A stretch of DNA of 64,000 nt from Candidatus Micrarchaeota archaeon CG1_02_47_40. Lineage in GTDB: Archaea > Micrarchaeota > Micrarchaeia > Anstonellales > CG1-02-47-40. The position numbers and the translations under genes are program-made. The DNA lies in contig MNVE01000009.1 of assembly GCA_001871475.1 (NCBI GenBank), forward strand, positions 149,120-213,119, written 5' to 3'. Shown piece after piece: positions 331-4,732 of the stretch. The notes beneath the pieces were generated by a model that did no database searches, was not told where the DNA came from, and saw only the letters and a program-made list of their open reading frames with translations. The stretch's first letter is position 1, and each line of letters begins with the position of its first letter.

Positions 331-1515
331 TTACTTTTTACTTACTCTCCTTAAAAACTCGTCGTGTATTTTTACGACATCAAGCTTTTCAACTATCGCC
401 TTGCACCCTAAAATTCCGCTTATGCTTGGTTTTGTGCGCCCCGAATCCGAGCTGACAAGCTCTTTTATGTAAGTGCCTGCCTGCGCACGTATTCGAAGTG
501 TTAGCTTTTTCCCCTTCCCTTTTGCGCTTATAGAAATTATTTTCCTTTTCCTCTGCAAATCGGCGCGCCTGTGCAAAACCCTTGTCGGGGTTTGCTGCCA
601 TATTGTTTTTCCGGAAAGGGAAAGTATTTTTTTAAAGTCAGATTTTGCAATCTCCCTCTCAAGGGAGACTTCCGCCTCGTATTCCTTCTCAAAATGGGAG
701 CTGCACACCACTTTCACAAAATGCTGCGAAACCGTTGAAAGGGAAGGAACTCGGATGCGCACATCCCTATTTATCTCCTTTTGCAGTGCGTGCATATCTG
801 CTTTTCTTTTTCGGGGATTTTTCACCTCTATTGCGAACGGCCTGCCGCTCCCGCGCATTACCGCATCTATATCCTCCCTTCCTGAAGCGTGGAATGCGGT
901 TTCTTCCCCTTCAAACGCCCTGCGGATTGGCGCGCCTATGATTCCTTCTACTGACTCATACATTACTCCCTTTCCGTTGCATTTTTCGCATATGCAAATT
1001 TTTTCATCCCCTCTTCCGCCCAGCCTGCCGTTCCCTGCACATTTTTTGCAATGCCAGATGCTCTGCGAAATATCGCGGGCGTATTTTTTGTAATGGGAAA
1101 AAACAAATATGGGGGAGATTTGCGCGCTTACGGAGTTGCGCTCAAAATCAAGGAGAAAAAGGACATCGCTTGCGCGCGATGAATATTTTTTTGCTGTTTT
1201 TGAGAGAATGTATTCGCGCGCCGCCCCATTTATGGCGTTTTTTATGCTTCTTGAATTTTCAAGCCCGCGCTCCAGCCAAAGCGCCTCCTGTGCAACAAGA
1301 ATTTTTTTAGGAATGATACAGCCAATGGAAAAGGTGCTCCATTCATATCCCTCTGCCTTTCCTATTGCCATGCAAGAGAGAGTTTCCAGATTCCCAAAAA
1401 GCCCACTACAAAGGGAGCACTCTGCGTTGGCAGATTCGTTTTTAATTGTTTGTGCGCAAATGCTGCAAAGCCCCATCGAAGGTATATTTGAAGGGGAATG
1501 CTCAAAAGATGGCAT
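331..1515 (-). CDS. pus10: tRNA pseudouridine(54/55) synthase Pus10
   Basis: N-terminal CxxC pairs (LCSICAQ...CSLCSG, CKKC...CEKC), catalytic-type GREDIDAVMRGSGRPFAIEVKNPRKR; true start may be the internal MGLCSICAQ. Confidence 0.85.
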   Translation of the reverse strand: MPSFEHSPSNIPSMGLCSICAQTIKNESANAECSLCSGLFGNLETLSCMAIGKAEGYEWSTFSIGCIIPKKILVAQEALWLERGLENSRSIKNAINGAAREYILSKTAKKYSSRASDVLFLLDFERNSVSAQISPIFVFSHYKKYARDISQSIWHCKKCAGNGRLGGRGDEKICICEKCNGKGVMYESVEGIIGAPIRRAFEGEETAFHASGREDIDAVMRGSGRPFAIEVKNPRKRKADMHALQKEINRDVRIRVPSLSTVSQHFVKVVCSSHFEKEYEAEVSLEREIAKSDFKKILSLSGKTIWQQTPTRVLHRRADLQRKRKIISISAKGKGKKLTLRIRAQAGTYIKELVSSDSGRTKPSISGILGCKAIVEKLDVVKIHDEFLRRVSKK

Positions 1516-2495: not shown

Positions 2496-2705
2496 ATGGA
2501 AAGGAAACTAAACGGCGTTTTTGACATCGCGGTCAATGAGGAAGAAGTTAATGGGAAGAGGGTTTTCGTTTCGCACTGCCTGAATTTGGGGATTGCAAGC
2601 CAAGGATGCAGCTGTTAGGAAGCCATAGAAAACATAAAGGATGCCATTAAGTTATACCTTGAAGAATGTCCCGAAAATCATGTCAAACCGCCAGCCATAT
2701 TTTGA
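2496..2705 (+). pseudogene. HicB-like protein interrupted by an in-frame TAG at 2616-2618
   Basis: Manual translation MERKLNGVFDIAVNEEEVNGKRVFVSHCLNLGIASQGCSC*EAIENIKDAIKLYLEECPENHVKPPAIF*; matches the HicB/UPF0150 pattern except for TAG. Confidence 0.6.
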
Positions 2706-4012
2706 GGTAAGCCCCCTCCCTTTACCATCCTTTCTATTTTTCTCCTTAATCCGCGGTTTTTCTTAAAACCTGTGAATAATTTTTCAACCTGCTCAAACTG
2801 TTTTAAAAAGTCGCGCACATCAAGCTCGCTTACCCCCGCGCCCTTTGCTATCCTTGCAATCCTTCCCTTTCCCTTGTGGAATAGGGAAGCGTCCTCCCTC
2901 TCCTCCTTTGTCATTGAATTCACCATTGACTCGTATTTTTTCAGCTTCTCCTCGGACTGCTCAAGCATTTGCCTTGGCACGTCAGGCGCGCCAAGCATTG
3001 AAAAAACGTTTTGGAGCGGCCCGAGCTTTTTTGCGGCGCGCAGCTGCTCAAAAAAAGTTTTTATGGTGAATTTTTCCGTAAGTGTGTCCGGGGAGAGCTG
3101 CTCCTCCTCTGCAACCGTTTTCACTTTCTCAAGAAGGGATTCCAAATCCGCAAAGCCAAGCAGTCTTCCAACGAATTTCTTTGAATCGTAGAGCTCAAGG
3201 TCTTCTATTTTCTCCCCCATGCCGCTGAACGCCACCTTTGCGCCTGTCTGCGCTACTGCTGAAAGCGCGCCTCCCCCCTTGCCGCTCCCGTCCAGGCGGG
3301 AGATTATCACCCCGCTTAAGCCCACCGCCTCGTGAAACTGCTGTGCCTGCCTTCCTGCCAACTGCCCTATGTCTGCGGAAATCACCAGGAATTTTTCATC
3401 GGGCTGGAGAACTGCGGTTATCTGCTTGAGTTGCTCCACAAGCCCTTCATCAAAGGCGCTCCTTCCTGCCGAATCTATTATAAGCACGTCCTCTTTTGCG
3501 ATTTTGAGCGCTTCCTTCACTATTTTTGCAGGGTCGGTCTCCCCTTTTTTCCCGTAGAAGGGAACATGGGCTTTTTCTGAAAGCTGCTGCAATTGCTCGT
3601 ACGCAGCAGGGCGGTCGGTGTCAGCGCATATTAGCGCGCAGGAAAGCCCTCTTGCCTTGAAGTAGTGCGCGAGCTTTGCACAGGTAGTTGTTTTTCCACT
3701 GCCATACAATCCCAATAACATTATTTTCTGCTTTTGCAATTTCGGGGCGTAATTCTCCCCGAGTATGGAAGTCAGCTCGTCGTAAACTACCTTCACCACG
3801 TGCTCCTTGTGCGAAACCCCTTTTAGCTTTGAGGTGTCAAGCGCTGCGGCTTCTATCTTTTTTGAAAGCTCAAAAACTAGCCTGACATTCACGTCGTTGG
3901 AGATGAGAACGCGTTGGAGCTCTTTTACCATCTCCTTTACGGTCTTCTCATCCACTATTGCCGCGCCTGTTATTTTTGCAAGCGCCCTGCGCAAGCCTCT
4001 GCCTAAGTCCAT
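2678..4012 (-). CDS. srp54: Signal recognition particle 54 kDa protein
   Basis: GLYGSGKTTTCAKLA, DTDRPAAYEQL, DSAGR, SRLDGSGKGGGALS and a C-terminal M domain. Confidence 0.95.
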   Translation of the reverse strand: MDLGRGLRRALAKITGAAIVDEKTVKEMVKELQRVLISNDVNVRLVFELSKKIEAAALDTSKLKGVSHKEHVVKVVYDELTSILGENYAPKLQKQKIMLLGLYGSGKTTTCAKLAHYFKARGLSCALICADTDRPAAYEQLQQLSEKAHVPFYGKKGETDPAKIVKEALKIAKEDVLIIDSAGRSAFDEGLVEQLKQITAVLQPDEKFLVISADIGQLAGRQAQQFHEAVGLSGVIISRLDGSGKGGGALSAVAQTGAKVAFSGMGEKIEDLELYDSKKFVGRLLGFADLESLLEKVKTVAEEEQLSPDTLTEKFTIKTFFEQLRAAKKLGPLQNVFSMLGAPDVPRQMLEQSEEKLKKYESMVNSMTKEEREDASLFHKGKGRIARIAKGAGVSELDVRDFLKQFEQVEKLFTGFKKNRGLRRKIERMVKGGGLPQNMAGGLT

Positions 4013-4083: not shown

Positions 4084-4227
4084 GGGCCAGTAGCTCAGCC
4101 TGGTTAGAGCGGCAGTCTTATATGACACGTTCTAGTACATTCAGAAAGTGTTTAGGCAAGCTGTAGGTCGAGAGTTCGAACCCATATAGGGACTGCACGT
4201 CCCGGGGGATATATCTCTCCTGGCCCA
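4084..4227 (+). tRNA. tRNA-Ile (anticodon UAU) with two introns: 4123-4158 (37/38) and 4180-4212 (T-loop 58/59)
   Basis: Acceptor GGGCCAG/CTGGCCC-A, D-arm GCTC/GAGC, anticodon stem GCAGT/GCTGT with loop CTTATAA after splicing, T-stem GAGAG/CTCTC with loop TTCGAAT after splicing; both introns fit bulge-helix-bulge geometry; mature tRNA 75 nt. Confidence 0.88.
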
Positions 4228-4402: not shown

Positions 4403-4732
4403 ATGCAAAAGCGCAGGGATTCGAAAATAACAATTGTAGTGCGCGAGAGGGTGGAAATACTCCTGTCTGAAGCGCACAAAATAGCTAAAAGCAACCTTGT
4501 CAGGGCAAAAAGATACATTAAGCTTGCAAGAAGGCTTGCCGAAAAATACCGCGTGCGCTTCACAAGGGTGCAGAAGATGCATTTTTGCAAGAAGTGCAAT
4601 ACTCCTTTCGTGCCAGGGCACAACGTGAAAATAGGGTTTGACCTAAGGGCGCACCAGATAATTTACGAGTGCAAAAACTGCCGGGCAGTAATAAAATTCC
4701 CCTATAAAAAGCGCAAGTTGCATAAACAATAG
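4403..4732 (+). CDS. rnp4: Ribonuclease P protein component 4 (Rpp21/Rpr2)
   Basis: RAKRYIKLARRLAEKYRV...CKKCNTPFVPGHN...YECKNCRAV zinc-ribbon pattern. Confidence 0.9.
   Translation: MQKRRDSKITIVVRERVEILLSEAHKIAKSNLVRAKRYIKLARRLAEKYRVRFTRVQKMHFCKKCNTPFVPGHNVKIGFDLRAHQIIYECKNCRAVIKFPYKKRKLHKQ

Follow-up and report, generated by a model that had tools for sequence, protein, structure and literature searches.

Positions 4084–4227 of the window (the whole stretch of 64,000 nucleotides that was analysed) hold a real tRNA-Ile(UAU) gene with two removable introns. The source is a MAG of Micrarchaeota (DPANN), 1.15 Mb long and 93% complete. We put a probability of roughly 0.92 on the reading that the gene is functional, that its UAU anticodon reads AUA, that both introns are spliced out, and that the precursor forms a hairpin before splicing. 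Genes of this kind are already known, and this one is typical of its phylum. What seems new lies in the first intron: it carries an element that pairs and co-varies with the D arm of the same tRNA, and which appears to be undescribed in the literature searched, a search that was limited in scope.

Table 1. Coordinates of the tRNA-Ile(UAU) gene, its parts, and neighbouring genes in the window.
Feature	Position	Strand	Remarks
tRNA-Ile(UAU) gene, two introns	4084..4227	+	discriminator A73; CCA not encoded
Exon 1 (tRNA positions 1-37)	4084..4122	+	acceptor GGGCCAG, D arm, anticodon 5' stem, CUUAUA
Anticodon UAU (34-36)	4119..4121	+	ARAGORN on joined exons
Intron 1, 36 nt, position 37/38	4123..4158	+	canonical BHB: CTTA/TAGG, bulges TA^T and CA^A, inner GACAC/GTGTT
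Exon 2 (positions 38-58)	4159..4179	+	A38, anticodon 3' stem GCUGU, variable AGGUC, T stem GAGAG, T loop UUCGA
Intron 2, 33 nt, T loop 58/59	4180..4212	+	BHB: outer GAGA/TCTC, central GTTC/GGAT, bulges GA^A and AT^A, inner CCC/GGG
Exon 3 (positions 59-73)	4213..4227	+	
D-arm strand GTTAGAGCG, positions 19-26	4103..4111	+	pairs with 4128-4136 in proposed precursor hairpin
Upper stem GUC/GAC, hexaloop UUAUAU	4115..4126	+	loop holds anticodon and 5' splice site
Intron 1 strand CGTTCTAGT	4128..4136	+	D-arm complement; core UCUAGU 4131-4136 conserved, co-varying
ACA	4137..4139	+	directly 3' of helix, conserved; AYA in most relatives
Pus10	331-1515	-	~2.6 kb from tRNA-Ile(UAU) gene
SRP54	2678-4012	-	
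RNase P subunit Rpp21	4403-4732	+	

The joined exons (Table 1) form a product of 75 nt, which ARAGORN calls as tRNA-Ile(tat) with all four stems paired. The conserved tRNA residues are present and the stems are perfect, and the isoleucine-type body (GGGCC.G acceptor, A73) is common to this tRNA and the tRNA-Ile(GAU) of the same genome. ARAGORN found no tRNA in the unspliced window, and the Rfam tRNA model gives the unspliced gene 15.6 bits, which is below its cut-off. By eye, there is a TATA-like TTTAAATAA about 27–35 nt upstream, and a T-rich stretch 3' of the gene. The structure is not a product of chance, because 5' halves of the same kind occur in most genomes of the phylum, and in one relative (G188) the 39-nt 5' half is identical to exon 1. 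We infer that the gene is expressed and that its product is spliced in vivo and charged.

In a list of BHB-like motifs covering the gene and its flanks, the best-paired entries are exactly these two introns. Both have two 3-nt bulges around a 4-bp helix, with 4, 5 and 5 pairs in the central, inner and outer helices of intron 1, and 4, 3 and 4 in those of intron 2. The second intron was placed at 58/59, since a position at 59/60 would break its 4-bp central helix. The EndA of this genome is a single chain of 395 amino acids (start TTG) that aligns with the epsilon2 EndA of ARMAN-2 (PDB 4fz2/9w2k) over 390 amino acids, with E=6.1e-136. As judged from this alignment, the splicing endonuclease belongs to the epsilon2 three-unit class, which has a broad specificity (PMC4033280). 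The precursor would be spliced at 37/38 and 58/59 by this enzyme, and we assume that the exons are ligated by RtcB. ARMAN-2 (Micrarchaeum acidiphilum) offers a close comparison. In the excerpt of PMC12397907 used here, its enzyme is reported to cleave its own pre-tRNA-Ile(UAU), a BHB-type epsilon2 substrate that shares phylum, anticodon, BHB intron and endonuclease class with the present gene; the same excerpt mentions neither a T-loop intron nor pairing between the D arm and the intron.

The T-loop intron has many counterparts. At least 12 of the 22 tRNA genes parsed in this genome, on a list that is partial, carry a T-arm intron after splicing in silico (Ser-GCU, Pro-UGG, Thr-CGU, Ala-CGC, Arg-CCG, Leu-GAG, Cys-GCA, Val-GAC, Gly-CCC, Lys-UUU, His-GUG and Ile-UAU), with sites accurate to 1–2 nt and a few parses of poor quality. 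Several T-loop introns have, by eye, similar starts (ACCCATATGGGGGG, ACCATATGGGGG and ATCCCATATGGGGG, with ACCCATATAGGG in Ile-UAU), and many T-arm introns among the loci L004–L024 of this genome start alike (CCCATATGGGGGG...). These similar starts suggest that one intron type has spread, and the T-loop intron of tRNA-Ile(UAU) would be one of a set scattered over many tRNA genes of the genome. In the nearest relative (G003) the UAU gene has kept intron 1 and lacks the T-loop intron, which is found in 25 of the 51 UAU loci at order and class level.

T-arm intron positions have long been known in archaea (PMC4090602). In the Thermoproteales, T-arm sites are likewise used, with several introns per gene and similar introns among different tRNAs, but this is another phylum, with an endonuclease of type (alpha-beta)2 (PMC4090602). 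The tRNA-Ile(UAU) of the red alga Cyanidioschyzon merolae, a eukaryote, also has introns in the anticodon and the T arm, together with an extra one in the D arm (PMC9602550). The first-pass annotation had considered the combination of UAU decoding with a T-loop intron to be unusual, which these counts and precedents contradict. The abundance of T-arm introns hides a large part of the tRNA complement of such genomes from standard finders; only 10 tRNAs of this genome score over the cut-off of the Rfam tRNA model. Apparent D-loop introns were also seen, in the tRNA-Val(GAC) of this genome (L019) and as an extra intron in the tRNA-Ile(UAU) of a relative (L136, G005).

No TiaS (family PF08489) was detected in this genome, nor in any of the 197 genomes of the phylum that were searched with this single domain family; 94 of the 197 are at least 90% complete, and all four archaeal controls were detected. 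Because this genome is 93% complete, it is the phylum as a whole that carries the argument for the absence of TiaS. No detectable TiaS means no agmatidine route. AUA is in heavy use, making up 548 of the 1174 isoleucine codons (47%) in the ORFs of the window. AUA would be read by the genomic UAU anticodon in this lineage. A plain UAU anticodon is expected to misread AUG. It should be added that intron-bearing tRNAs evade tRNA models, and that a CAU tRNA-Ile2 could escape in the same way.

UAU tRNA 5' halves were found, at one mismatch or fewer, in 245 of 303 Micrarchaeota genomes, a tally into which some Arg or GAU tRNAs came through the permitted mismatch, and from which tRNAs with other D loops, found later, were missing. 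They also occur in records named Diapherotrites, Aenigmatarchaeota, Woesearchaeota, Pacearchaeota and Nanoarchaeota. On these matches the UAU anticodon is the rule in Micrarchaeota, and its presence here is therefore no surprise. A survey in 2018 had found a genomic UAU in tRNA-Ile in only two of 167 archaeal genomes, those of Nanoarchaeum equitans and Korarchaeum cryptofilum, which belong to other phyla (PMC6000648). The UAU gene of Korarchaeum has one intron and its GAU tRNA has none (PMC6000648); the tRNA-Ile(GAU) of the present genome (L122, G000:C1:5950-6310, minus strand) has an apparent intron at 37/38 and another in the T loop. Thus the earlier interpretation stands as to the identity of the tRNA, its introns, the broad-specificity endonuclease and the lack of a TiaS match, which it had proposed as a check, whereas the rarity that it claimed for the UAU anticodon does not. 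A phylum without detectable TiaS, and with a UAU tRNA bearing a conserved, co-varying intron element, is a concrete place to look for discrimination between AUA (Ile) and AUG (Met) without agmatidine.

This element, absent from the first-pass annotation, lies at the start of intron 1. In the UAU genes of relatives, the first 17 nt of the intron (YGRCNCGYTCTRRYACA) are conserved and the remainder has diverged. The 5' part, TCTRRYACA, complements the tRNA's own D arm, with TCTRRY opposite D-arm positions 19–23. The predicted hairpin has a 9-bp lower stem, a 3-bp GUC/GAC upper stem and a UUAUAU loop, and, bar one end pair, is contained in the predicted minimum-free-energy fold of the full precursor. 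In the predicted folds of 5' fragments, a D-arm/intron helix of at least 6 pairs occurs in 50 of 55 loci, compared with 12.7 expected from shuffled introns. The pairs 25:7 and 24:8 are often broken, so that only the six pairs at 19–23 are claimed to be conserved. In the unspliced precursor, the 3' strand of the D arm and the 5' part of intron 1 would form a hairpin whose loop contains the anticodon and whose base is followed by ACA.

The pairing was analysed across relatives. In 43 distinct sequences, restricted to rows starting [TC]G[AG]C and having the common D-loop length, 91.7% of cells pair, as against 34–52% when the helix is slid, and there are 12 double-change cells; 0 of 500 shuffles scored as high. 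When all rows are used, the start of an intron matches the D arm from its own genome better than swapped ones (0 of 5000 permutations); for L137, another D type gives a slightly better pairing than the native one. The introns of elongator tRNA-Met served as the contrast for D-arm pairing. With one row per genus, a D-loop T goes with an intron A in 21 cases (G in 2, T in 1) and a D-loop C with an intron G in 10 (T in 1), giving p ~9e-7 for a table that is hand-made and uncorrected for relatedness. Both states are found within a single family, f6 (GGCAGAG with CTCTGYC, and GGTTAGAG with CTCTAG), and C-G is carried by f10 and by f13/f14/f26, so that several independent switches are likely. Seven genomes have a mismatch-free copy of the motif of the element, in each case a single one, which lies in this gene. 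We are therefore fairly sure that the pairing between the D arm and intron 1 is real.

The element has a limited range. Intron 1 is not universal in UAU tRNAs, as 36 intronless cases show, and within Micrarchaeota it is lost in most of family f11 and some of f12; it is therefore not required for AUA decoding everywhere. Outside the phylum the pairing is weak, and in two large families the introns are short or absent. A DPANN-wide pairing was considered and set aside as poorly supported (21 of 63 loci from named records as against 10.3 expected, some of the loci being Micrarchaeota); the resemblance seen in Diapherotrites stems from the 3' BHB strand. In several other DPANN records (L173, L193, L194, L203, L216, L265) the UAU introns share another hairpin close to their start, with a sequence of roughly ATTCRYTAGAAT.

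As for function, the hairpin is, in the predicted fold, mutually exclusive with the D stem and the BHB, and must therefore open before splicing. This would suit a device for folding or timing: it is quite possible, if well short of probable, that the hairpin keeps the D arm and the 5' splice site from the mature fold until transcription ends, and splicing and D-arm modification may, just as tentatively, be put in order by this. Its presence in the predicted folds both of the full precursor and of most 5' fragments points the same way. However, such a device leaves unexplained why ACA is conserved and why the element is restricted to one tRNA.

Both features have a place in a second proposal, which we regard as unlikely but not negligible: that in Micrarchaeota the anticodon intron and the tRNA's own D arm make up an H/ACA-like cis element directing modification of U34, probably to pseudouridine, before splicing. 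While the hairpin still exists, ahead of its loss by splicing, a pseudouridine synthase (Cbf5 or another) would gain access to U34, and the product PsiAU would read AUA and not AUG. The hairpin is conserved, co-varying and specific to the UAU tRNA, it is followed by ACA in the manner of the H/ACA type, and its loop has U34 in second place. A hairpin with ACA resembles the T-arm/acceptor/CCA substrate of Cbf5, and also an H/ACA hairpin; a TruB/Cbf5-family gene is present in the genome, and Pus10 is nearby. Against this, the stems are short and interrupted relative to H/ACA guides. By eye, there is neither a long upper stem nor a K-turn, and so neither a K-turn/K-loop nor a two-sided pseudouridylation pocket was recognised. 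The intron 1 hairpin has no match to an Rfam H/ACA family, and some families keep UAU without the intron. In C. merolae, where a link between introns and pseudouridylation has been studied, little Psi34/36 was found, Psi34 being weak or absent in vivo (PMC9602550).

There is a precedent in yeast, in which Pus1 modifies U34 of tRNA-Ile(UAU) in the intron-containing form only, and needs the intron structure around the anticodon before splicing (PMC11408192). There, the dependence on the intron has been demonstrated; here it is proposed, with a different structure and enzyme. If true, archaea of the phylum Micrarchaeota would have evolved, independently of yeast, their own form of intron-dependent Psi34 in this tRNA, and the discrimination of AUA from AUG would have been solved without agmatidine.

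Other archaeal introns direct, or may direct, modification as box C/D guides, namely those of tRNA-Trp, including its wobble base, and of N. equitans tRNA-Met (PMC11408192, PMC3491384). Unlike these, intron 1 has no C (RUGAUGA) or D (CUGA) boxes in 4123-4158, and a box C/D guide was rejected for it. The elongator tRNA-Met introns of relatives in the same order (L332, L334, L335, L337, L340-L349) are of a different type. Their sequence TATGAGTNNTGA is the reverse complement of the tRNA's own anticodon loop, ACTCATA, in which C34 is opposite the fifth base upstream of a D-like box, as in the spacing of C/D guides. An ATGAT box comes next, followed by GGCGCTCTGRG, complementary to the D stem/anticodon stem. 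It is likely from these sequences that the elongator introns encode a C/D guide for Cm34. Since they carry a C/D-like guide against their own anticodon loop, it is plausible that introns act on the wobble base here too, which favours the modification of U34 proposed above.

A third explanation, that the complementarity is inherited sequence similarity with no function, is improbable. Related sequences do inflate the covariation counts, and the D-stem bases GAGC are invariant, so that several pairs are unable to vary. However, inheritance does not account for the switches between C-G and T-A within f6, and in f10 and f13/f14/f26, nor for the advantage of own over swapped D arms in every permutation, and the rest of the intron has diverged. 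Finally, that the locus is a decayed or unexpressed copy, as its two interruptions and its poor showing with ARAGORN and Rfam when unspliced might suggest, is hardly credible given the perfect stems and conserved residues of the spliced form, the heavy use of AUA, the matching of only this one UAU gene in the genome, and the position of the same tRNA in G003, where it likewise adjoins (by eye) the start of an SRP54-like gene.

One further point concerns the neighbourhood. Pus10, the tRNA Psi54/55 synthase, is encoded ~2.6 kb away from this tRNA, which has intron 2 within its T loop.
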